Source: Thraustochytrium sp. TN22
Taxonomy: Eukaryota; Sar; Bigyra; Thraustochytrida; Thraustochytriidae
Reading direction: 5' to 3'
DNA length: 64,000 nucleotides
NCBI GenBank assembly: GCA_013306675.1
Contig: JABLUY010000175.1
Coordinates: forward strand, 18,657 to 82,656
Shown here piece by piece: positions 2,976 to 61,541 of this stretch. Made by a program: the position numbers and the translations under genes. The notes under the pieces were generated by a model. The model did no database searches and was not told the origin of the DNA. It worked only from the letters and a program-made list of their open reading frames with translations. How positions within the stretch are numbered: the stretch's first letter is position 1; each line of letters opens with the position of its first letter.

Positions 2976-3199
2976 ATTGTGCGCGCCTCGCCCCCCCTCT
3001 CCTTCTTTCGTTCTGTGACCAACCCCTCTCAATCCTCTGTGACCCAACTCGAAGCTGGGCCCCAGCTTCTGACTCATGTACAAACCAAATGCGTACGTGG
3101 TACAAAACAATCCGATCTCTGTGTGTGTTTCGACTGAATGAATGCCTCTGGGCGGACTGGCTTCTTGACCGACCTCGCTCGATGTTTGCTTGCTTGGCG

Positions 3200-3391
3200 C
3201 ACATCACCTTGCCTTGCTGTGACAGGCTGTTGATCACACTTGGCTCGCTTGCTGGGCGCACATCGCCTTGCCTTGCTGTGACAGGCTGTTGATCACACAC
3301 TTGGCTCGCCTACTTGCCGCTCTTCTCTTTCCTTCTGCAGGCAAGCGCCACGCTTCTTGGCCGACCTCGATGTTTGCTTGTTTGCTTGCTG

Positions 3392-3448
<57 letters not shown>

Positions 3449-3520
3449 GCCTCTCGCGGTGGAACATCGCCTTGCCTTGCTGTGACAAGCTGTTGGATCA
3501 CACTTGGCTCGCTTGCTTGC
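3200..3520. repeat. Three direct copies of a ~50-bp unit around a (GCTT)n microsatellite
   Basis: A unit beginning CATCRCCTTGCCTTGCTGTG and running through a TGTTGATCACAC-like core to TTGGCTCGC occurs at about 3202-3250, 3260-3310 and 3465-3514. The second and third copies sit either side of a GCTT run of about 14 units (3392-3448) with GTTT interruptions just before it. The block lies in the convergent 3' region between the P-loop gene (ends 2975) and the SET gene (ends 3537). It is non-coding on composition. Confidence 0.85.
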
Positions 3521-3536
3521 CGCTCCTTCCCCCACT

Positions 3537-4940
3537 TCAGCAGCTCAGCCCCAACTTGCAGCCGTCTGCCTGCAAGGCGCCACGCTCAACCGCCACCAAA
3601 TGCACCACCTCTGGACGCGAGGACTTGTTTGCTTCCGACTCGCCAAGACGAGCGCTGACCACTTCGCGGGCGCGCGCTACAGCGGCCGGGGCCAACACAG
3701 GTCGCAGCACCTCCCACAGCAGCTCGTCCTCGTCCTCATCCTCCTCTTCGTCCTCATCCTCCTCTTCGTCCTCCCCCTCCTTTTCGTCCTTCTTGTCAGG
3801 CAGCGCCGCAGCGCGGCGCGCAGATGCCAGCGTCTGTACATGCGCAGCCTCCGAGGACGGCGGCCACGAGCCGGCCGAAAGCGCGTCCAGGGCGGCGCTC
3901 AGCAGGACCGCGACGCAATCTGTGCCATCAAGACGAGCCTTCTTGCTGCCAAGCGCAGCGTGCTTGGTCTGCGCGCAGTGCGCGGACACCTTGGTCAAGG
4001 TCTCAGCGTCCAGCGCAGCCACGGCGCACGCCACGCGCAGCTCCGTCACGCCAGCCGTGGAAGCGCCAAGCTCAATCGTCAGCTCGTCCTCCAGGCCGTC
4101 CCAGGAGCTCTCGGCGAGCACACCGGCGCGCTTCAGGAGGGCCTGCGCCTCCTTGCCCAGGCCGACAGCGCCCGTAGACACGCTCACCACCTCGCGCAGA
4201 GCGGCCCGCGGCAGCACAAACCCGCAGCGGTACAGGAGCTCGGCGGTCGACACCTCGTCGCCGTACGCCTGCGTGAGCTCCTCGCCCGCCTCGATGCGCC
4301 GCAGCGCGCGGCCCACCACCTCGTCGCTGTCCTCGTCCTCGTCGAATTCCACGTTCGGCTCGTTCGTGTCGCTGCAGTTGAGCATGTACACAAAGGGCAC
4401 CACCGCGCCGCCAAAGAACGGGTTCAAATGCGACATAATGACGCCGCACGCGCGCGCGAACTCCTGCTCGTCCAGGTCCTTGCGCTCCAGCGCCGTCCAC
4501 TCCTCGCGCAGGCGCTCCAGCTTGCGCCGGACCGGCGCCTCCAGCTCCGTGCCGCGCACCTGCGCCGCCGCATCGGCCCACAGCCACGGCAGGTCCTCGT
4601 ACGAGGCCGGCTCCGGCAGGGTGCGCCAGAGCGGCGCCCACGCCGACGCCTCGCCCTTGGCGCGCTCCTCCAGCAACAGGACCGCCTTGTCCACCTGCGA
4701 GTCGCGGGTCTCCACGGCGTCCTCGGCCTCCTCCTCCTCCTCGGCCTCCTTGGCACCAAAGGCCGCCTTGCGCGGCACACGAAAGAGCTCCTCGCCCTCG
4801 TCCACCGCGGCGGAGGCCACCACGCCGAAGCCGTGCACCACGCCCTCGGTCGTCATGCGCACCTTGTCGCGCGCCCAGTACGCGCCGCGCGCCAGCAGCC
4901 AGGCCTCCAGCGCCTCCACGGCGCCGCCTTCGCTCGCCAT
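3537..4940 (-). CDS. SET-domain protein lysine methyltransferase, RuBisCO LSMT / SETD6-like
   Basis: A 467-residue protein starting at the ATG at 4940. The N-terminus has GVVHGFGVVASAAVDEGEEL (about 33-52), the opening strands of an LSMT/SETD-type SET domain, which transfers methyl from S-adenosylmethionine to lysine. The core has VPFVYMLNCSDTNEPNVEF (about 181-199), in place of the usual N-H-S motif, then GEELTQAYGD (219-228) and LLYRCGFV. An acidic insert sits after residue 64, as in the split SET domains of this family. The C-terminal half resembles the substrate-binding helical domain and carries a long Asp/Glu run. The His-to-Cys change in the NHS motif is unusual and could affect cofactor binding. 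It is divergent from PNO1, with about 290 bases between starts. The substrate cannot be predicted. Confidence 0.8.
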   Translation of the reverse strand: MASEGGAVEALEAWLLARGAYWARDKVRMTTEGVVHGFGVVASAAVDEGEELFRVPRKAAFGAKEAEEEEEAEDAVETRDSQVDKAVLLLEERAKGEASAWAPLWRTLPEPASYEDLPWLWADAAAQVRGTELEAPVRRKLERLREEWTALERKDLDEQEFARACGVIMSHLNPFFGGAVVPFVYMLNCSDTNEPNVEFDEDEDSDEVVGRALRRIEAGEELTQAYGDEVSTAELLYRCGFVLPRAALREVVSVSTGAVGLGKEAQALLKRAGVLAESSWDGLEDELTIELGASTAGVTELRVACAVAALDAETLTKVSAHCAQTKHAALGSKKARLDGTDCVAVLLSAALDALSAGSWPPSSEAAHVQTLASARRAAALPDKKDEKEGEDEEEDEDEEEDEDEDELLWEVLRPVLAPAAVARAREVVSARLGESEANKSSRPEVVHLVAVERGALQADGCKLGLSC

Positions 4941-5197
4941 TCTCTGCAGCGCCCAGTCAGCCTCGGCCTCGCCTTCTTTTCTGCTGCCTGCCTGGGTTTG
5001 TTTGCCCTGCGCCTCTGGCCTCTGGCCTCCGACTTTGATCGTCGAGGCCGCTGGCACCACCATCGTTGGTCCTCGGCGGAGCCCGCACGCGCCGGGAACG
5101 CGGGGCGCGCGGCGGGTGGTGGCGGCGGCCGCAGAACCGAAGTCTCGCTCTCGCTCTCGCTCTCGCGCGCGCGGCAGGGAGCGGCGCGGCGCGGCGC

Positions 5198-5198
<1 letters not shown>

Positions 5199-5229
<31 letters not shown>
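5199..5229 (+). repeat. (CAG)n repeat immediately before the PNO1 start codon
   Basis: About ten CAG/GCA triplets run directly into the ATG at 5230, so the repeat lies in the 5' UTR of PNO1 or could encode an N-terminal Gln/Ala tract if an upstream start were used. A (CTCTCG)n tract lies at about 5140-5166. Both are in the divergent promoter shared with the SET-domain gene. Confidence 0.8.
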
Positions 5230-5231
<2 letters not shown>

Positions 5232-5928
5232 GGAGGTGGACGCCGGCGCCGTGATGGCGAACGCGGCGGAGGCCGCTGCCATGGCGGGCGCCGAGGAGGA
5301 CGCGCTCATGGAGGACGACACCCCCCTGGACACGAGCACCATCGAGTTCGCGCCGCTGCGCGCGGAGCAGATGAACGGCGGCAAGACGCAGTTCCGCCGC
5401 GTGCGCATCCCGCCGCACCGCTTCGCGCCGCTGCAAAAGAACTGGGAGAACATCCTCACCCCGCTCGTCGAGCACATGAAGCTGCACGTTCGCTTCAACC
5501 CCAAGGCGCGCGCCGTCGAGATGAAGACCAGCCCCGAGACTGAGGACCCCGGCGCGCTTGCTCGCGGCGCTGACTTCGTCCAGGCCTTCGCCATGGGCTT
5601 CGACGTCCAGGACGCCGTCGCCCTCCTCCGTCTCGAGGACCTCTTCGTGGACAGCTTCGAGGTCAAGGATGTCAAGACCCTCACCGGCGACCATCTCTCC
5701 CGCGCCATCGGCCGTATCGCCGGTCAGGGCGGTAAGACCAAGTACGCCATTGAGAACGCCACGCGCACGCGTATCGTCGTCGCCGACCAGCGCATCCACA
5801 TCCTCGGCTCCTTTCAGAACATCAAGATCGCTCGTGACGCTGTCTGCAAGCTCATTCTCGGCGCCCCCCCTGGCAAGGTCTACAACCAGATGCGCACCGT
5901 TGCCAGTCGCATGAACGAGCGCTTCTGA
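5230..5928 (+). CDS. PNO1: Pre-rRNA-processing protein PNO1 (Dim2), KH-domain RNA-binding protein
   Basis: A 232-residue protein, slightly shorter than yeast or human PNO1. PNO1/Dim2 binds the 3' end of 18S rRNA within pre-40S particles, works with the NOB1 endonuclease and supports 18S dimethylation; it acts in nucleolus and cytoplasm. Visible family motifs are FRRVRIPPHRFAPLQKNW (about residues 55-72), VKDVKTLTGDHLSRAIGRI, the KH-like GQGGKTKYAIENATRTRIVV, IHILGSFQNI, and the C-terminal LGAPPGKVYNQMRTVASRM. The first 35 or so residues are acidic and Ala-rich, as in other eukaryotes. The start follows a CAG repeat. No intron is needed. Identification is firm. Confidence 0.96.
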
Positions 5929-48508: not shown

Positions 48509-49720
48509 TTAGAAAGCAGGGTTCATGATTTGGCGACAGAGAGGCTTCTGGCACGTGAGGCACTTCATCTTGTACTGCGAGGAGTAGTTGACGCCCGCGT
48601 CGAGGTGCTTGGCGACAATGTCAGCGAGCGCACGGCAAAAGGTCTCAGAACCATTGAGACCCTCGGTGTAGCGAAAGTCAGCGATGCCAGCCTTCTCGGC
48701 ATCCTCCGCGTACTCCATGCCGATCTCAAAGAGCGTCTCAATGTGGTCCGAGGTGAAGGCCACTGGAACGACGAGGACGGACTTGTGGCCCTTGCGACCG
48801 AGGTTGGCAAGCGTGGAGGCAGTGTCCGGCACCATCCACGGCATGAAGCCGACCTTGCTCTGCCACGCGAGCACGTGCTTGTTGACGGCGCGCAGGCCGG
48901 GGATTTTGCCGGTTGCCACCTGGGTCGCCTCGAGGTTGTCCATGATGGCCTTGACGCTTGCGGCGATCTCGCCCACGTAGTGGTCGCCCTTCTCCACGAC
49001 CTTCATGGGCACGGAGTGGGCGCTAAAGACTACGATGACGTTCTTGCGCGTCTTCTCGTCGAACTCGAGCAGGCGCTCCACGATGCGCTCCGTGACGGCG
49101 TCGATGAAGCCACCGTGCAGCGGCCACCGGTCGATGATGCTCCATCGAAAGGCGTCCTGCAGGCCCAGGCGCCGCGCCTCGCGCCAGAGCTCGTTCATGC
49201 TCGAGCCCGACGTGGTGCAGGACCACTGCGGGAACTGCGAGAAGGCGATCGCGTGCTCCACGCCGTCCTCCTTCATCTCCTGCAGCGCCACGTCCGTGAG
49301 CGGCTCCGCGTACCGGAACGCCGTGTACGCCTTGTGCGGCGCGCTCTCCGGCCGCATCTCGTCCAGCAGCGCCGCCATGCGCTTGCCCTGGTACGCCGTC
49401 CACTTTTTGATCGGGCTCCCTCCGATCTCCTCGTACTGCTTCTGCACCTTGGCCGTGCGCATGCGCGCCACCGTCGTGCCGAAGAACTCCTGCACCTGGC
49501 CGCCGCCCAGGTCGATAATGTCCGAGTCGCGAAACAACCTGTTCAGAAAGGGCCCGGTCTCCTCCGGCGTCGACGGCCCGCCCATGTTGAGCATCACGAT
49601 GCCGGTCTTCACCTTGCCCTCCTTGCGCCCGTCCGCGCGCGCCGTCGCCTCCGTCGCCAGCGCGCGCGCCCCGCGCCGCCGCCACGCGGCCCCCGCCGCC
49701 GGCGCCCGCCGCAGCATCAT
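48509..49720 (-). CDS. Ferrochelatase, [2Fe-2S] type, mitochondrial
   Basis: A 403-residue protein from the ATG at 49720. Ferrochelatase inserts ferrous iron into protoporphyrin IX, the last step of haem synthesis. The core shows VMLNMGGP (43-50), GGSPIKKWT, the catalytic His in FSAHSVPM (His235), and the Glu block AFTSDHIETLFEIGMEY (Glu328). Four Cys match the human [2Fe-2S] cluster ligands: Cys168 in FPQWSCTTSGSS, and Cys387, Cys390 and Cys395 in CLTCQKPLC at the C-terminus. The first 35 or so residues are Arg/Ala-rich, a mitochondrial presequence. The frame is open upstream to a TTG, which was not used. The cluster places it with animal, fungal and some bacterial enzymes rather than plant plastid forms, which lack these Cys. 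Confidence 0.96.
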   Translation of the reverse strand: MMLRRAPAAGAAWRRRGARALATEATARADGRKEGKVKTGIVMLNMGGPSTPEETGPFLNRLFRDSDIIDLGGGQVQEFFGTTVARMRTAKVQKQYEEIGGSPIKKWTAYQGKRMAALLDEMRPESAPHKAYTAFRYAEPLTDVALQEMKEDGVEHAIAFSQFPQWSCTTSGSSMNELWREARRLGLQDAFRWSIIDRWPLHGGFIDAVTERIVERLLEFDEKTRKNVIVVFSAHSVPMKVVEKGDHYVGEIAASVKAIMDNLEATQVATGKIPGLRAVNKHVLAWQSKVGFMPWMVPDTASTLANLGRKGHKSVLVVPVAFTSDHIETLFEIGMEYAEDAEKAGIADFRYTEGLNGSETFCRALADIVAKHLDAGVNYSSQYKMKCLTCQKPLCRQIMNPAF

Positions 49721-52102
49721 CGCTGCCCGAGCGCGAGCGAGCGCGAGCTGCCGTGCCCTTTGGATTGGGTTGATCGGATCTGCGTGCGGCAGCAACGAGT
49801 TAGTTTGCGGTCATGATTGTTGCCTCGCCTCGTAGCTGGCCACTGGTGGCTGCTGCCCACCGTAAACTGCCAGTGCCACTGTGGAAAGGGTAGTGTCACC
49901 TGTGCCTCAGTGAGGGCCTCGTTACAGCCGGCTGGCCTAGGCCCCGAGTCTTCCCAACAACATGACGCAGGACGCATGCCATGCGGCGCGCATATGCGCT
50001 GGGCTTTGGGGCTGCCAAGAATGCCGCCGCTCGGGCACGCAGGCAGATAAGCAGGCAAGCAGACAAGCATGCAAGCAAGCAAGCAGCCCAGGCAGCAAAT
50101 GGGCAAGACCTGCAGCATTCGAGGCTTTTAATCAGGCTCGCCATGCCCATCCCATTTTGCAAAACGAGTTGTGCCCATCTTCGTAGAGAACGTCGCGCGT
50201 GACTCATCTCTGGCGGTCCCGCCTCGCCGAGAATGCTCGAGGTCCACTCTCCGAAAGCTGCGCTGCTCATCCGCGGTCCGCTCTCCGAAAGCTGCGCTGC
50301 TCATCCGCTCAAGGACGAGCTGCACAGGGTTGGCAGCACTCACTGTCAGGCACGAAAAGTGGCACGAGCAGCGCTCCTCCGCCGTCGGACCGCCGACATC
50401 ATTTTGACAACTGGGCAGGCCTCCAGCTCGTTCCTGCCGGTGTTGCGCCATCCGTTCAAAAGACGAGGCGGGAATCGGCAGAACACGCTCTAGGACAAGA
50501 ATGCAGTGGACGCAAGCTGACCTGTGCGTTGAATTGTGAGTCCGTGCAAATGTGCGTGCCGTACTAGAAGCGTTGGCCACGCAACTGCGTCGCTGCGATA
50601 CGATCGTAACGATCTCGAGATTCTCATCCAGTGCTCCAGCAGCGGCAGCCCAAACAAAGCCCACGCCATGGATCGATTTTCCATCGGCTTTGCTTTCGCT
50701 CGTCCGGGTAGGTCGACCCACGGGCGGCATGATTAGCACATCGCCGATTCGTTCGTGGCGTCACGGCACCGTCTCGCCTGACAGGCCAACGAACCACAAG
50801 CCAACGAACCAGTCCAGCCAACTCAGCTGAGCCAAGATGCCACCAAGGTCTCCTGTTTCATATTGACCGCCTCCCTGCACGCGCCCCCGCAGGGCACACG
50901 CGCCACGTAAGGTGGATAAGGCGGTCCCCGCCTTCCGGCATGCACGGCATCGACAGGCAAAAGCAGCGGTCTGATCTGGCCACCTTAGGTGGGGCCGGAG
51001 GTCCATCTGCGCAGGCAGGCTCGGGCGTGGCGCCCGAGGCGTGCCCGCGGCCGCCGAAATGATGAGACGCCACGAGACGGCCAACCGCCCCCCGTTTCCA
51101 AGTTGCCAGCCAGCCATGGCTGTCGCAGCACGCGCGCCGAGAGCGTGCGATCGCGCGCCGAAAGAAGAGCGATGGCATCATGGCATGATGGCACCGTTGG
51201 CACGGGAAGTTCGCGCCCACGGCAAGTCCTCCACGGAGGGCCAATCGAGTAGCTCGGGGCCACTGTTCGCTCGTGTTGGCTCGCAGCGCCATCGAGCCCG
51301 ACTCCCAAACGCCTTCCTCTTCTTTTGCAAAAAGCCAACCCAGGCCGCTGACCCGGCCGCTGCCGCCTCGCGCTCGCCACGCTCGCCGCGCCCAGCTGCG
51401 CCCGAGCCTCGCCCGAGGCCGCCTGCAGTGGGGTTGTGTTTTTTTTGGGCGACCGCGCCGCAGCGGCGGCGTCAAGTAGTAGAAGGTGGTGGCTGCTGCT
51501 GGCTGGCTGGCAGTCTTGGGCACCTCGGCTGGCCCGGCTCCGAGACGCACGCGCAAAGCAACGCGGAGCCTCGTTTGCTTGATTCGTCTCTCTCTCTCTC
51601 TCTCTCTGCTCCCGGCCTTCCGCCGTGAGGCAGTCAGCCACTCCGAGTCGTCCGCCGCCGCGAGGCGCGCCAACAAGCCGCGAGACGCGCGTGGCGCGCA
51701 GCTTTCAAGGCAAGCGCCACCGCCCCGCCGCGCCCACGCGCGCACGAGCAGCCGCATCGGCCGCGCAGACCCTCAAACGCAGCTCCGCGGCCGCCTGCCG
51801 CGCTGCAGCGAGCGCCGCGCGACTGCACCACACATTGGCTTGTGGCTGGATCGGCTTGCTCACCGCGCGGCTCGTCTTGAGCGAGGCTCCAAGTTCAACC
51901 AACCACCCCGAACAGCGCCACTGAGCAGCTTGAAGCTGCTGCACGTGCCCGCGGGGCCGCCACGAGCGCGCCATCGAGCGCCGCCGAGCAAACAGGAAAT
52001 CGGCAGGAGCCCTGCCCTGTCTGCGCGCCTGCCCCGGCTGCCGCGCACATCCTGGTGGGGCGGGCCGTCTGCGCGCCGTCACGGCAAGACAAGATCTTCA
52101 AC
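49721..52102. other. 2.4-kb divergent intergenic region
   Basis: Contains a CCAGTGCCACTG element (49870-49881), a GCAAGCAAGC tract (about 50055-50095), two perfect-like 34-bp tandem copies (50241-50274 and 50275-50308, one base differing), and a CT run (51586-51608). From about 51640 the sequence is GC-rich up to the protease start. The various open frames of 60-300 codons carry no domain and overlap one another. Contains the promoters of ferrochelatase and the protease. Confidence 0.5.
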
Positions 52103-53410: not shown

Positions 53411-54301
53411 TCCATACTTCACTACGCTGCTCGACTGACCCCATGAGACAAAACCGGCCGTCCTCGTTTCCTCTGCCAGCCGGCACAGAGGAGTAATTCG
53501 ATCGGCAATTCCGGTCTGCTGTTCTTGCTGCACCTGCAGCTGATGCTGATGCTGATGCCATGTAAATTTTGTCATGCAAAAGTAAGTAATCTTCCATGGA
53601 CTGGATGATGCAAATCTTATTATCAAAGACTTGGGCATCGCAAAACCCCGACGACATCCAGCAGCCGGACGACATCAACCCCAGCAGCCGGGGGGTTAAC
53701 GCCAGCAGCCGGACGACATCAACGCCTGCAGCCGGACGACATTAATGCCAGCAGCCGGACGACATCAGCGCCTGCAGCCGGACGACATTAGCGCCAGCAG
53801 CCGGACGACATCAACGCCAGCAGCCGGACGACATCAACGCCAGCAGCCGGACGACATCAACGCCAGCAGCCGGACGACATCAACGCCAACAGCCGTCCCG
53901 ATGCAAAATTCTGTCAAATTCTGGTACCCTACCACAATCGCAACGAACTGGTGCATGCCTCTGCTCTCCTTTCTGACGCCAATCTGGCTGGCGTAGGCCC
54001 TTCGCAGAGCGTTGATGTAAATGCGTCATTACGCCCTGCAACACCAGACACCCGCCAGCACGCCGCGAGGCCCGCATGGGCGCGGCGCCGGACCAAATCT
54101 GATTAGACCTTTTCAAGGTTCGCAAAAAAAAAAAAAAAAAAACATTCAACACCGGGGCTTCGCATGCAGTCCCCTATCATACTACTAGCCCGGCCCTACG
54201 TGACTTTACTTCTCAGTGCGAATGAGATGAGGTGTTGCCCACGTGGTATGATCGAATGTGATGTAAACTGGTGCATTGCAGTTTATATTATACAACGTTT
54301 T
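53411..54301. repeat. 23-bp minisatellite and poly-A run in the 3' intergenic region
   Basis: From about 53648 to 53893 the unit GCCAGCAGCCGGACGACATC plus AAC (23 bp) repeats about ten times, with TTAATG, TCAGCGCCTGC and TTAGCG variants in the left half and near-perfect copies in the right half. A run of 19 A residues is at 54124-54142. The rest is balanced-composition sequence without a gene. Confidence 0.85.
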
Positions 54302-56506
54302 CTATTGCAGTCTTTGTCTGACTCTGACACTTGCAGCCATGTACTCCACGTCAGGCACCTCGTCCGAGTCCGCAACCTCGCACAGGTAGCTGGAGATCAA
54401 AGGTACCGAGGCTCGGAGCATGGAAGCGCGGGCACGCAGGGACACCAGCTTGGCGGCGCGCGTGAGGACCAAATCCCACTTGGAGAGCCCAGCCTCAGGC
54501 AGGAGCGCGGCGCGCAGTGGCAGCGTCGACCCTGAATCCGACTCCGACACCGCCCAAACCGGCTGCTGCGCAAGTCCCACTTGCCGCAGCAGCTGCAGAG
54601 CACCCCGGAGCTGCCGTACCTCACGCGCGAGGCTGGCAATTTGGTTCTGTTGTGCGATGAGCTCCTTGTTGAGCGCAAGCTCGTCTTCCAGCATCCGGAC
54701 GAGCTTCCCGTCGCAATGCTGGCCGTTCTCGAAGCTGCTACGGATGTCAGTTCAGTCCTGCGCGCAACCGTATATGTTTCGCTGCAACGCACTCGAGATT
54801 CTGGAGAGTCCGGTTCTTCTTGAGCGCCTTGCACAGCGCGACCATGCCCGCGGCGCCGATGCGCTTGTCGTGAATGCTTTGAAGGGTCGCCGCATCATGT
54901 CAGCTTACCGGTCACGGGCAAAGTCTCTAGCGTTCACGTACACCAATGAATGGAGGGAGCTCCTGCCGCTGCCCAGTCCTTCTGCCAGCGCCTGCACGCC
55001 CTCGTTGTCGATCCCGTTGCAACGGAGACTGCGCGCGCCGTCCAGAGCGTGAGTGGCTACGCCCTACCTAAGCCAGACCAAGACACGTACCCAAGGATGG
55101 CAAGCGAGCTTTTCCCACTCCCGAGAGCCCGCGCCAGCGACTTGGCGCCCGCGTTGCCGAAATGGTTGTCACCGAGACTGCGCATGAAGAGGGGTGTCAG
55201 TGTCCAGACGCACGCGCACTTCCACTCGCCACGCTACGCACAGCAGAGATAGCATCGAGCAGCTTCCGCTCTCGAGTGCCTGCGCCAGAGCCTCAGCGCC
55301 CGTGGCGCTGATGCTGTTGTTGAATAGCCTGCGAATTGACCGCATTAGCAAAGCGATTTCTCCGAAAACGCGCGCACGTCATTTGCAACTCACACCAGCA
55401 TGCGAATGAAGGTCTTGCCGCTTGCCAGAGCCCGTGCCAGCGATGCAGCGCCTGCGTCTCCGATCGCGGCGCCCGTGAGACTGCGCTGCTGGTCAGCCTC
55501 CTTGGTCCAGATGCGAAGCGCAGTCTGAACCTACTCAAGCAGCGTAAGCGCACACTTGCCGCTCTCCAGCGCCAGCGCCAGCGCTTCGGCACCGAGCGCG
55601 CCGATCCTGTTGCCGTCAAGACTGTAAGGAGGAGAGCCATTCGCGTCAGCATCGTGATGAGCACGATGATGAGCGCAAAGAACGCGACGACGACGACGAC
55701 AACTCACATCAACTCGGACAGGCAACATTTGCCACTGCCAAGGGCTCGCGCGAGCTCCACGGAGCCGGCACCACCAATCGCATTGTCCTCCAAACTTCCT
55801 CATGCGTCAGTCTCCTGTGTTGCGATCCGGCCGCCACGGCGAGGAACACGTACTACAGCGCAGTCAGACCACTGGTGCCGCTCTTCAGGACGCTCGCCAG
55901 CATTTGGATGCCAATGTCGGTGATTTGGTTGCCAGGGAGCCTGCGAAGAGCGCCAGTGTTAGATCTGCTCGCAACTTCGCGTGCGCATGTGGTCTTTTCT
56001 TACCCCAGCGTCGTCAGGGTGTTGTTGCCGCTTCTCAGCAAATATCTGGCGAGGATCTCCAGACCGACATCTGAAATGATATAGTCCTCCAGGCTGTGAA
56101 ACGTAGGGTGTCAGTGTCTGCCTCCTGGCGACAGGCGAGGTGGCAGCCGCATCTTTTGCCGCCGCTCTTGCTGCACATACTCGACCCGCTGGGCGCCTGT
56201 CGCCAGCACGCGAATCACCTCTTGCACCAGGTTGATCTTGTCCTCGTCCATGTCCTCGTCCTCGTCCTCGTCCTCATCCTCGTCCTCGTTCTCGTCCTCG
56301 TCCTCGTCCTCATCCTCGTCCTCGTCCTCGCCATAGCTATCCTCGTCCTCGTCCTCCTTCTCGTCCTCGTCCTCCTTCTCGTTCTCGTTTTCCACCTGCA
56401 ATTTCTCGGCGGCCAGGGCTGCGCGCTCGCCCGACGCCATGCCTGATGACAGCTCAGCAAGAGCAAGGCCCGAGGTCTTGGCGGTACGGGAGCCTGCAGC
56501 GCACAT
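54302..56506 (-). CDS. LRR protein with acidic head and coiled-coil tail, 11 exons (one LRR per exon)
   Basis: I built this model from splice sites. Exons on the minus strand: 56506-56181, 56093-56004, 55940-55854, 55794-55708, 55621-55535, 55480-55394, 55328-55242, 55178-55092, 55028-54942, 54876-54793, 54734-54302, giving 513 residues and an unbroken frame. Donors are GTATGT, GTAAGA, GTACGT, GTGAGT, GTAGGT or GTGCGT; acceptors end in AG. Introns are 54-87 bases. Exon 1 encodes an Asp/Glu run (about residues 43-90). Exons 2-10 each encode one ribonuclease-inhibitor-type LRR (30, then seven of 29, then 28 residues), near LxxNxIGxxGAxxLARAL. Every intron is phase 2 and cuts just before the first Leu. 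Exon 11 encodes a coiled coil (LALNKELIAQQNQIASLARE) and a tail without a known domain. Ligand unknown. Confidence 0.85.
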
Positions 56507-57328
56507 CTGTCGCAGACCTGTGTCACAGTTCTGTCGCGCGTCTCTTTATGCGCGCGCGCGAGGCCTGCCTGCCTGCCTGTTTGCCTGCCTGCCTGCCTCG
56601 GCCTGCCTGCCTGCCTGTTTGCCTGCCTGCCTGCCTCGGCCTGCCTGCCTGCCTGTCTGTCTGTCTGCCACGTACTTGCCAACCTTAGTCCGCCAGCCTC
56701 CGAGTCGCCTCCGTGACCCTGCGCGCAAAAGGCGACGGCCCGTCATGGCGACGCTGCGGGGCTGCGGGTACCCACGCGGCCACAGACGGCGCCGCACGGG
56801 CCACGTGGTCGGCTGGTGGTGGCTTTGCAGAGTGTACGTACAACGCCCGAACTCCCAAATTTGAGGCCTCCCGGTGCTGGAGCAGCTGGACCGCCCGTGC
56901 TGGAAGCCTCTGACCGCGCCGCGAAGCCGCGAAGCAGTGCCACCGATTGCGCGCGATTGCGTTCGCGGCGTCGCTTTCAAGGCTGCCGCAAGGCCCAGGA
57001 AGCAGCGCATGGCTGACCTCAGCACCGGCGCGGTTCTGGCTGCAGAATCTGGCATTTTGTGTGGCTGGCCAAGCGGCCCAGGCCAAAAGTTGAACAGCGT
57101 GACCGCGAGCGTCTCATGGGAAGTTCAAGTTCAAGTCAAGCGCCGCTGCCGTGCACTGGGCCACTGGCACTGCGACTCGGCCCGGACCAGCGCATGAACG
57201 CCATGGAGAACGCCTCCAAGAACGTCAGCAAGCTCGAAAAGAGAGAACTAGAATATACACACCGGAACCACAGGAACAAGCCATTTGTTGTCATTGAGCG
57301 TCATTGAAAGTCACGCTCTCACGGTCAG
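56507..57328. repeat. Spacer between the two LRR genes with a (GCCT)n higher-order repeat
   Basis: At about 56562-56668 GCCT units are arranged in a 38-bp higher-order repeat present 2.6 times, ending in GTCT units. Further right, AAGTTCAAGTTCAAG (57121-57135) is followed by GTGCACTGGGCCACTGGCAC (57151-57170), a combination repeated in other intergenic regions. The spacer lies upstream of the gene ending at 54302 and downstream of the one ending at 57329. No gene. Confidence 0.65.
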
Positions 57329-60300
57329 TCACTCTCCGTCGTCGAGCGGTACTGGCAGGACCTTGCGCGCGCGGGAGCAGAGCTCCGCGACGAGCGCGGG
57401 AAGCTCGTGCGAGGTGGCGTAGGTTGAGTCGTGGCGCTCGCGCTCGCGCCACGTGAGCACCTCGAGGTCGTCGAACAGCCTGGCACGCAGCGCGGGTTCA
57501 AAGGCGTCGGCCCCATCTTCAAAGTCCCAGGACCGCTCGACGGCCAGCAGGCCGACGTCGGGACGTGCGGAACGCAGAACCTGGACGATCTCGGGCTGGC
57601 AGCCAGGCTCCAGCACGACCACGAGGACGGCGGCTTTGGCGACATCTCGCGCCACGCGCATGCCAGCGTCGGCAAGCATTCCACGCAAGCGCGTGACGAC
57701 CTGCGATGCGGACGTGCCAACGACAGCCAGGGTGGGGCGCGCGTAGCTGGCCCGGGCCGGCGGCACTGCCTGTGGCGGTGGAGGCTGCAGCGCAAAAAAA
57801 CCGGCGTGCGCCGCCAGCGCTCGGAGCATGGCATCCTCCTCGAACAAGCGGCGCCGGTACGGAATCTTGAGGCAGCTCGAGATGGCGCGCCGCGCGGCGC
57901 TGAGTGCGTCGCCGGCGTCGATTCCATGTTCGTCGAGGGCCACCCGGAGCCAGGCCACGTCTGCGGCGCGGGGATGAAGGTCGTCGTCCCCGCCCTCGCT
58001 GGGATCCGGGCCGAGGTCTCCGCCGCTCCAGGGCACGTCCCGATCGCCGCACCACGGGCTGAAGCGCGCATCCTCCTCAACAACGAAGAAGACGCGATGC
58101 GCGAGGTCGTCGCCAAAGTGGCGCACCGCAAACATCAGCTCCGCGAGGCAAAAGGGCCGAAAAAGCGCGTCCGCCGTGAGCACCATGAGAAAGCGCTGCG
58201 AGGCGAGCACGCCGCGCTGCATGCCACGCAGCGTCAGGTCGGTGGCGCGCATATCGATCCACGCAGACATCTGGTGTCGCTCCAAGCCCATGAGCAGGTT
58301 CTTGGCGATCCCGACCGCCTGCGTCTGCATGTGCGAGAGGAAGAAGTGATAGGTCGGCAGCTCGATCAAGTCCGCGTGCACCGGCTGCACGAATACTTCG
58401 TCCGCGAGCGTACCGCGCATGAGGCTGAAGCGCCGCGGCAGCAGGCGTCGGTGAAGGCTGAGCACGCGGCGGGACATGCGCTTTGGACGCGCTGGCTCGC
58501 GCGGCGACCCGCGCGCAGGATCCTCCCGCATCGCCTCGAAGAACGGGTGTCGCTCCAAGATCTCGTCCAAGTCGATACGCTCGGTCGGGTCGCCGCGCAG
58601 GCACAGGCGCACCAGGTCGCGAGCCGCCTCGATCTCGTCCGGTGTCCCGTCTAGGCCGTCGGCCTCGTCCCAGCGCGGCTGGATGCGCTCCATGCGCTCC
58701 TCATCAACGCCCAGCCAGTTCAGCAGCTCCGTCTTGTCGCGTCGGTGCACGAGGTTGTCATCCGACTCATCCACCATGAAGAGCTTGGTACCGGAGAGCA
58801 GCTGATACAGCACGGCGCCAAAGCTCCACACGTCGAGCGCCTCCGTACCCGGGGGCGCCGGCGCGCCGACCGAGAAGAGCGCGCGTGCCACCTCGGGGGC
58901 CGCGTAACCAGAGCTCGACTTCTCACTCAACACGGCGCCGACCTCCACAGAGGCGTCCAAGTCGATGAGCTGCCACGTTTCGTCTTCCGCCGCTTCCGGG
59001 TCTGTGCTGCTGGACGAGCGGCGCCACGCCTCCGGCACCAGGAGCCCGCCCGCGCCATCGTCTGCAAACGTGTGCGAGATGGATGCAGACATGCGGACCA
59101 CGTTGCGCGGCTTCAGGTCTCCATGCACGCGCCCGCTCGCGTGCAGGCCTCGGAGCGCCACCGCGATCTTGTACGCAATCATGCGCACCTTGCCAAGGTT
59201 CTTTCCCGCGAAGCGTTCCGTGTTGATCGCCTCGAACAGCGAGCGCGACCCACGCGGCATCACCAAACACAGGTTTTCGTCCTGCACGCGCTTTTCGTCC
59301 GCGTCCTCGCGGTACAAGAGCTCCAGGCAGCCGTTCTCCACGCGCGACGCGCGCGCCTGCACCTCCCGCTCGTACTGGCCCTGGACGCGCATCACTTTGA
59401 TGGCAACCTGCTCGTTCGTCTGCACGTCCGTCGCGAAGTGCACCGCGCACGTCAGCGACTCGTGCACGGCGGGACCATCCGCAATCGCGTACCGACCCAG
59501 GTACGTGCCGTACGTGCGCGCCCACGCCTGCGTGTTTGTGTTGGACAACGCCAGCGACCGCACCGTCCGGCCGCTTCCGTCTTCCGCGCGCATCAGCTCC
59601 AGGCCGTCCTTGAGCTGCAACAGTGTAAAGACCTCCTCACAGAAGCTCGAGGGCAGCGCAAACGCTCCCTTCACACGGCGATCTAGCAGCGCGTGCATCA
59701 TGGGCAGGCCGTCCGGCCCCGACGTTGAACCAGGAGGCGACACGAGCCAAAGTCGGCGGTCCCGGAACGCGGAAGCGTCTTCTGACGCCAAAATGTGGAC
59801 AAAGGCGGCGAACACGTGCGGCTGTGCGCGCGAGAGCTCGTGTGCAGCGGCTGTCCACAACCGCCGCTCCGTCAGCAAGTACTTGCGCAGCATGCCGCGG
59901 CGCTCTTGCAGCCTTCGCGGCTCCTCCGCGGACTCGGACCACAGCTCCTGGAACGTCGGGTGCTTGATCAAGATGGAGAGCCCGCTGCGATCCCACCATA
60001 GCTTTGTGAGTGATGTATCCCACCGAGCGTGCGAGGCAAGGGCACGGAGCCGAGCGCCAACCTACTGCAGCTCCCTCAAGTGCGTGTTCCACGCGAGGGT
60101 CCGCACCAGCCTGTTCACGCCCTCCGGGCCCATCTTGTTCTCCCCCAGGTAAAGCGTCTGGAGCGTGCACTGGTCGCTCTCCAAGGCGTGCGCCAGCTCT
60201 CCGGCACCTTCGTCGCCAATCTTGTTCCACCCGAGCCTGCGCGCACGTGCCCGCGCGGGCGTCAGTGGCGGTTGACGGGCCGCATCGTCCACAATATACT

Positions 60301-61541
60301 TACGAAAGCGTAGCCAGCGGGCAGTGGCCGCTCTCCAGGGCGCGCGCCAAGGCCCCCGCGCCCTCGTCGCCAACCTTGTTGCGGTAGAGCCTGTATATGT
60401 GTGTGCGAGCAGGCGTTGTCTCGGACGGCGCTCAATAGGTCAGCCACAATGCGCAAGAGGGGAAACCTCGCAGGACGTACGACAGCGTTGTCAGCGAGCA
60501 GCGGCCACTCTGCAACGCGCGCGCCAAGGGGCTGGCGCCCTTCGGTCCGAGCTTGTTGATTCCGAGGCTGACGATAAGCAACGCGTCAATCAGTTTTCAA
60601 GCCCTTCTTGCGCCTTGCTCAGGAACTCACTCCAGCGTCGTCAAGGCGCACTGCCCGCTCTCCAGAGCTCGCGCCAATGAATCGGCGCACTCGGGGCCAA
60701 TCTTGTTGCCAATGAGACTTTTTGCGCACCAAAGCATCAGCACATACTCTGGGCGCATACGCTCCAAGGCATGAGACTCACGAGAGCAACGTGAGCGGGC
60801 AATGGCCGCTCTCCAGGGCCCGTGCCAGCGACGCGGCGCCCTCAGGACCGATGCTGTTCGACCCTAGACTAAGGTGTGGCGCCAGTGGCGTCAGCTAGCT
60901 AGCCAGAGCTTTGCCATCTCCCAAACGCACTATAATTTTGTAAGCGCGCACTGACCACCCTCCAGAGCCTGTGCAAGCGCGTCCGCTCCCTTCGGACCGA
61001 TCTCGTTGATACCCAGACTGCCTCGTGTTAGCTCTCTACGGCACCCTTTGCCCGGTATGGTTTGACTCACTCCAGCGTCGTCAACGCGCATTGGCCGCTC
61101 CCCAGTGCTCGAGCAAAAGATGTCGCACCCTCGTCGCCGATGCTGTTCTGGTGGAGACTGCGGAATGGCGCTGTAAGTACGCTCGCAATGCCACAAGACG
61201 TACGTATCATACGTACATGAGGGTGGTCAGCGCGTGATTGCCGCGCTCGAGCACCCGCGCCAACACCTCGGCGCCCGCGTCGCCGATACCCTCCTGCGAG
61301 AGGCTGCCCGAGCAAGTCCGTCAGCGTGCTGAAGCCCAGACGCGATGCGCCTCGCGACATACTCCAGTTTTTCCGCGCCGGCGCGGATGTCCGCAAGTGC
61401 CTTGCCCACGGCTGGCAGCAGAAGCTCCATGCTTTCCTCCTCGTCGTCCCCGGCGCTGCCCCGCCGGCGCCAGGCCTCGTTGCTTGCGCGGCTCTGGCCG
61501 CGTCCGTTGCCTCGCTTCGCACGGGTCGTGGCATCCCACAT
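57329..61541 (-). CDS. LRR - protein kinase - TIR-like receptor protein, 10 exons (one LRR per exon)
   Basis: Modelled from splice sites: 61541-61363, 61303-61217, 61157-61071, 61017-60931, 60868-60782, 60717-60631, 60567-60481, 60390-60304, 60236-60066, 59984-57329; 1204 residues. Introns are 53-90 bases, all phase 2, with donors GTATGT, GTACGT, GTGAGT, GTGCGT, GTAAGT and GTAGGT. Residues 61-320 hold nine LRRs (seven 87-base exons plus one 171-base double exon). The kinase (about 479-804) has VAIKVM (Lys516), HGDLKPRN (catalytic Asp609), DLD in place of DFG (661-663) and AAPE (681-684). A TIR-like domain (about 865-1044) has FFLSHMQTQ, the BB-loop region DMRATDLT, and FCLAELMF with Glu935 in the NADase position. 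A further alpha/beta domain lies at about 1069-1184. The architecture fits an innate immune or stress receptor; no function is shown. Confidence 0.88.

Follow-up and report, generated by a model that had tools for sequence, protein, structure and literature searches.

The window, the whole 64,000-nucleotide stretch analysed here, lies on contig C83 of the Thraustochytrium sp. TN22 genome (37.9 Mb, 453 contigs). The GC content of the window ranges from 59 to 74% per 2-kb step, compared to 43-47% GC reported for Botryochytrium S-28, Oblongichytrium S-429 and the Aurantiochytrium strains. On the minus strand it carries a gene that combines leucine-rich repeats (LRRs), a kinase and a TIR domain (Table 1). 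Its ten exons join into a single frame of 1204 codons plus stop (57329-61541, -), seven of them being 87 nt and one 171 nt long. All nine introns are GT-AG introns in phase 2 and measure 53-90 nt. Seven of the eight LRR-coding exons hold a single repeat, and exon 9 holds two. We rebuilt this model from the sequence and arrived at the same ten exons, 1204 residues and nine phase-2 introns as a preceding sequence-only reading of the locus. The latter had also placed the introns immediately ahead of a repeat's first Leu, which is correct for eight of the split codons; the ninth sits where the LRR block ends. At the level of the sequence, the splice model holds. Chance splicing was ruled out as a source of the pattern: the 1.4 kb concerned contains a chain of eight in-phase exons of 87 or 171 nt, whereas 300 dinucleotide shuffles, in which we looked for these two lengths as well, never gave a chain of more than three, and gave one of three in 3 of the 300.

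Table 1 Features of the LRR-kinase-TIR gene and its neighbour (positions within the window).
Feature	Position	Strand	Remarks
Exon 1, start codon and N-terminal segment	61363..61541	-	179 nt, rebuilt splice model
Exon 2, N-terminal cap LRR	61217..61303	-	87 nt; first-LRR exons alike in L041, L042, L043
Exon 3, one LRR	61071..61157	-	87 nt
Exon 4, one LRR	60931..61017	-	87 nt
Exon 5, one LRR	60782..60868	-	87 nt
Exon 6, one LRR	60631..60717	-	87 nt
Exon 7, one LRR	60481..60567	-	87 nt
Exon 8, one LRR	60304..60390	-	87 nt
Exon 9, 87-nt LRR fused to 84-nt C-terminal cap LRR	60066..60236	-	171 nt
Intron 9	59985..60065	-	81 nt; starts GTAG; retention would give an in-frame TAG; letters within are LRR-like
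Exon 10, linker, kinase, TIR and C-terminal domain	57329..59984	-	2656 nt including stop
Protein kinase domain, residues ~479-808	58520..59509	-	Pfam, fold comparison; VAIK, HGDLKPRN (non-RD), LIDLD, APE
TIR domain, residues ~859-1050	57794..58369	-	Pfam, fold comparison; putative catalytic Glu935 in CLAEL
C-terminal alternating strand/helix domain, residues ~1068-1196	57356..57742	-	unassigned; no TIR relation in profile comparison
Neighbour LRR-exon gene, seven more 87-nt LRR exons	54944..55939	-	AG/GT borders, same type as window gene

The most doubtful junction is that of intron 9, because the intron stays in frame past its initial TAG and its letters are LRR-like. A TAG standing directly after exon 9 in a retained intron, together with these letters, would fit a locus in which the LRR exons form one gene and the kinase-TIR exon another, or one that is a decayed copy. 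We consider both very unlikely, given that the position of intron 9 is common to three paralogues, that relatives show the identical domain order in unspliced open reading frames (ORFs), and that none of the ten exons is broken. In these paralogues (L040, L043 and L045), the C-terminal LRR exon is 84 nt long (lengths judged by eye) and an intron comes after it at the corresponding position, and the segment beyond that intron resembles the start of exon 10, again by eye; their predicted structure supports the junction in the window gene. Since the cap is a separate exon in the paralogues, exon 9 is most simply explained as an ordinary repeat exon joined to the cap. Intron 9 itself is possibly a relic of coding sequence that has become an intron.

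The neighbouring LRR-exon gene spans 54305-56545 (-) overall and, by eye, consists of an acidic N-terminal segment, the LRR exons and a coiled-coil-like ORF; no effector domain was seen within these limits. The window further contains a ferrochelatase gene at 48509-49795 (-, Pfam 5.7e-95) and a 23-bp tandem repeat of about ten copies at 53658-53895.

Domains of the protein and its gene family

The sequence-only reading had described LRRs, a kinase, a TIR-like and a further alpha/beta domain in one chain, and Pfam and fold comparison agree with this description for the LRRs, the kinase and the TIR. LRR_6 (4.2e-27), Pkinase (1.8e-19) and TIR_2 (1.6e-6; 29.0 bits, cut-off 28) were found by Pfam, and both the kinase and the TIR fold were recovered, the best structural matches of the latter being the TIRs of RUN1 and SARM1. 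Pfam, fold and motifs together indicate a kinase with the predicted catalytic Lys, Asp and Asp. The conserved Glu position of the TIR, a putative NADase residue, holds Glu in eight of nine aligned rows (by eye); protein P0002 of Hondaea fermentalgiana has Gly there. The C-terminal domain was considered as a second TIR, for which profile comparison gave no support (probabilities of 2.6% and 0.2%). Pfam detected neither NB-ARC nor ROC-COR in the protein, and a simple hydropathy scan revealed no signal peptide or membrane span (best 19-residue value 1.46, none at the N-terminus), so that the protein, if it is a receptor, is probably intracellular.

To call this architecture rare, as had been done, is too strong. 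With the exon-10 ORF as query (50 of 61 candidates scored), we found 16 loci of the kinase-TIR family including the window gene, some of which are fragments. The 15 others lie on C239 (two), C398, C160, C155, C93, C407, C304, C329, C432, C39, C149 (two), C121 and C230, where those on C39, C121 and C230 are contig-end pieces that may be parts of genes already included under another locus; the count leaves out six weaker matches. At three loci, LRR_6, Pkinase and TIR fall into one unspliced ORF, namely L046 (1276 aa, TIR_2 36.4 bits), L050 (1629 aa, TIR_2 27.0 bits, slightly below the cut-off of 28) and L051 (1637 aa, TIR_2 29.0 bits), which makes the domain order independent of splice guesses. 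Seven of eight protein relatives (8000 candidates scored) came from the thraustochytrid Hondaea fermentalgiana. One of them, P0003, deposited as 'Protein kinase, putative', contains LRR, kinase and TIR according to Pfam, and P0001-P0007 share the order kinase, TIR, C-terminal domain, with 43-54% identity where they align; some stretches are absent from P0006 and P0007. The repeats of the deposited Hondaea proteins are spaced by 28 residues, compared to 29 residues here.

Genome-wide, TIR_2 matched at 123 places, 114 of them above cut-off, and an LRR peptide of the window type at 150 scored places (of 214 candidates), which form 36 clusters and of which 91 span the full 87 nt. On the same strand, 18 of the 123 TIR places have such LRR exons no more than 8 kb upstream. 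Of the 18, 11 also have a Roc place at most 2.5 kb upstream, and the other seven are kinase-TIR family loci. In total, Roc precedes at least 31 of the 123 TIR places by no more than 2.5 kb, which is a lower bound as all 123 TIR and 150 LRR matches but 41 of 108 Roc matches entered the pairing, the remainder being likely Ras-type as judged by eye. NB-ARC was found at two places in the whole genome, none on C83. A gene on C11 (L054) comprises an LRR-exon array followed by Roc (above cut-off), COR-A (33.2, cut-off 35.3) and TIR_2. Hondaea proteins P0010, P0011, P0012 and P0014 are of the LRR-Roc-COR-TIR type.

Two minor observations concern individual loci. The kinase-TIR relative L044 (G000:C93) has 15 LRR-like matches at 3047-5614, most of them after AG, and the donor site of its repeat is offset relative to the 87-nt type. 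At G000:C160:1247-4627, four TIR_2 matches follow each other at intervals of exactly 1043 bp and all contain an in-frame TGA, which suggests a tandem array of broken TIR copies.

Exon-intron cassettes and variation in the repeats

The LRR exons of several relatives are repeated together with their introns. C398 carries eleven LRR units at a spacing of ~276 bp, six of which agree in exon sequence; six of the introns are likewise identical, although tandem identical units may be miscounted in this draft assembly with its N gaps. On C407 there is an LRR unit every 260 bp, and on C11 we found 11 LRR matches 315-319 bp apart. One intron type, referred to as pool A, occurs at 38 places. Five contigs bearing kinase-TIR genes with LRR arrays account for 36 of these; of the remaining two, the one on C233 is a partial match and the one on C343 a piece at a contig end. 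A second type, pool B, occurs at 103 places, some of them short fragments elsewhere and none on the five pool-A contigs. Its introns were found in arrays upstream of Roc and TIR on C11 (73 kb), C321, C86, C38, C381 and C17, as well as in arrays counted without an assigned downstream gene (C379, C149, C210, C1, C359 and a second one on C11). Two ten-unit arrays, G000:C11:306559-309060 and G000:C359:8474-10969, have equal spacings save one 6-bp difference and are possibly alleles or recent copies; being near-identical, they do not yield independent counts. As the two pools lie on separate contigs, cassettes appear to circulate inside one effector class among the known genes, and the second pool is, by the domains predicted downstream, one that serves LRR-Roc-COR-TIR genes. 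Contig C83 is absent from both pools (38 and 103 matches), and the window gene's own introns are short.

All 64 exons below 290 nt that were bounded by two intron matches measured exactly 87 nt. A first pairing used 34 of the 38 pool-A and 85 of the 103 pool-B matches; a looser pairing of all matches gave 87 nt for 64 of 73 gaps, the other nine being 292-398 nt long and thus possibly skipping a unit. Full-length introns vary in length, from 189 to 210 and from 212 to 241 nt. Many near-identical introns in a genome might also be mobile introners inserted independently at many sites, yet 36 of the 38 pool-A matches are confined to LRR-array contigs of kinase-TIR genes, on which ground introner introns in unrelated genes were rejected, and exon and intron are copied as one unit. 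We regard an introner origin as hardly conceivable.

For pairs of pool-A genes, the best intron ends (last 150 nt) are 0.951-1.000 identical, with medians of 0.782-0.940, whereas the identity of their kinase-TIR exons, where BLAST could align them, is 0.681-0.881. This difference between the best introns and the coding part points to exchange between genes. It amounts to 1.000 versus 0.710 for C239b and C329 and to 0.964 versus 0.703 for C398 and C407, and stands out when C407 and C329 are compared with the other pool-A genes; for the closest pairs, the medians overlap the coding values (0.782 versus 0.835 for C160 and C239b). The closest intron of the 29 units was located on another contig in 15 cases and on the same contig in 12, with two ties (16 and 13 if the two C239 genes are kept apart and ties broken by name). 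Gene duplication by itself hardly accounts for noncoding sequence that is more alike than coding sequence, and related genes appear to have copied and swapped LRR exons among each other, in a diversification resembling that of immune sensors. Counting against exchange, over all 406 unit pairs the introns (0.147 differing) are less alike than the non-exposed part of the exon (0.096); the exposed codons (2, 3, 5 and the split codon, picked after inspecting the variation) differ at 0.521. Among the 177 pairs with introns 1-8% different, the exposed codons differ by 43-53%.

That some introns remain similar while coding exons diverge could also reflect functional constraint on the introns, for example through splicing control or a small RNA. 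This account seems improbable to us, since the C398 units are identical across exon and intron, intron lengths drift, the two pools have no contig in common, as duplication and exchange would leave them, and the window gene lacks these introns. We therefore favour exchange of cassettes between the relatives. Gain and swapping of repeats in frame, which had been proposed for the window gene, is borne out by sequence in these relatives and not in the window gene itself, whose short introns belong to neither pool and which bears no sign of recent cassette exchange.

Among 22 distinct pool-A exons, variation falls mostly on residues 2, 3, 5, 8, 16 and 27 and on the split codon. Within the motif xxLxLxx, a set fixed beforehand from general LRR knowledge, 0.413 of pool-A sites differ compared to 0.109 elsewhere, a contrast matched by 249 of 118,755 five-codon sets. 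The corresponding values are 0.584 and 0.310 for the window gene (reached by 284 of 118,755 sets), 0.667 and 0.408 for the neighbour gene (644 sets) and, with a weaker contrast, 0.467 and 0.333 for L043 (7247 sets). The first exon set had been picked by a motif that fixes six hydrophobic positions; redefining the units by their borders alone returned the same 29 units and the same xxLxLxx result, with an AG exactly 87 nt upstream at 30 of 34 donor sites. Variation concentrates in codons of the LRR exons that are predicted to face the ligand, and one of these variable codons is the one split by each splice junction. At the exposed codons pN/pS is 1.21; silent changes are elevated there too, so that reassortment of patches and selection are inseparable.

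Proposed function and comparison with known receptors

We assign a probability of roughly 70% to the reading that the window gene encodes an intracellular LRR-kinase-TIR receptor or guard in a multigene family with LRR cassettes, of which the gene is a settled member. Receptor function is inferred from domain logic: the RI-type LRR solenoid would bind a ligand, binding would release or cluster kinase and TIR, and the TIR may cleave NAD+. In the relatives, each LRR is an 87-nt, phase 2-2 exon within a repeated exon-intron cassette, and the near-identical introns could offer a site for unequal or ectopic recombination, by which repeats might be added, lost or moved between genes with the frame intact, as their sequence identity suggests. 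Because the splice border between repeats falls between two beta-strand leucines, the split codon should encode an exposed residue. One exon contributes two bases of this codon and the following exon the third, so that new exon neighbours can make new junction residues. A far bolder proposal, that the introns are kept alike as recombination handles, that reassortment is visible among the clones of one culture, and that the two effector-matched pools (kinase-TIR and Roc-COR-TIR) form a germline analogue of the variable lymphocyte receptor system, strikes us as improbable.

Given the many TIR genes and a TIR that resembles those of plant resistance proteins and SARM1, defence is the likeliest use. 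The same modular protein might instead serve self/non-self recognition, chemosensing or a signalling scaffold; variable exposed residues suit any diversified recognition task, and the zoospore-to-settled-cell transition of thraustochytrids, as described in PMC12221091, could use such sensors. We consider a role outside antimicrobial defence rather unlikely, as 114 of the TIR_2 places exceed the cut-off and a TIR fold nearest to those of plant resistance proteins and SARM1 leans towards defence or cell death.

The closest known case is that of the brown-algal LRR-ROCO genes. Zambounis et al. 2012 reportedly described LRR exon shuffling in these genes. According to sections of PMC11378527, they have 72-nt, phase 2 exons with one LRR each, selection on the concave face and alternative splicing; in the same sections, the authors state that somatic recombination at these loci is unreported, and real-time reassortment of arrays is raised and not demonstrated. 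As in the genes described here, there is one LRR per exon with phase 2 borders, arrays are shuffled in a stramenopile host, variable sites lie on the concave face, and LRR-only neighbours are a possible reservoir. The parallel to brown-algal LRR-per-exon genes, drawn already in the sequence-only reading, holds for exon layout, phase and concave-face variation. The brown-algal exons, however, encode a 23-residue LRR of another type in 72 nt, compared to 29 residues in 87 nt here, and ROC-COR is replaced by kinase-TIR in the window gene, while its sister genes carry Roc plus TIR; genes of the window type thus have neither of these two defining features. The phrase 'TIR domain' does not occur in PMC11378527, whereas the outputs here are TIRs, and intron identity between genes and two separate pools were seen here.

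New in our data are the TIR outputs, the kinase-TIR architecture, the 87-base module, the two separate pools and the signs of exchange between genes. They carry the principle of modular, exchangeable LRR exons beyond brown algae into a heterotrophic stramenopile that is unicellular, and link it to TIR outputs. This suggests that exon-cassette receptors either go back deep into stramenopile ancestry or were invented repeatedly. Related thraustochytrids can be grown as clonal cultures; should this also be true of the present organism, real-time reassortment of arrays is directly testable, and these genes are of high interest because recombination could be tracked in culture. A search of open-licence PMC found no paper on TIR domains in thraustochytrids and, among the listed papers on thraustochytrids and LRRs (PMC8917795 included), none that by title and abstract concerns receptors.

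LRR-kinase-TIR also joins the catalogue of intracellular receptor designs. TIR-NLRs and SARM1 share the TIR fold and the conserved Glu position with the window protein, and TIR-NLRs likewise combine LRR and TIR. Plant TIR-NLRs, however, have NB-ARC between TIR and LRR, which the window protein lacks; compared to TIR-NLRs and SARM1, it has its kinase in mid-chain and its TIR towards the C-terminus. Toll-like receptors and LRR receptor kinases have a signal peptide and a membrane span, neither of which the simple scan found here. For human NLRP3, parts of PMC6642158 describe 171-nt exons that encode two repeats of 28/29 residues each and whose borders keep to a single place in the beta-strand. 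Two repeats per exon and other effector domains set NLRP3 apart, and tandem identical cassettes are not described in those parts. It shares with the window gene the RI-type repeats, the fixed exon border in the beta-strand and a two-repeat exon of 171 nt, the size of exon 9.
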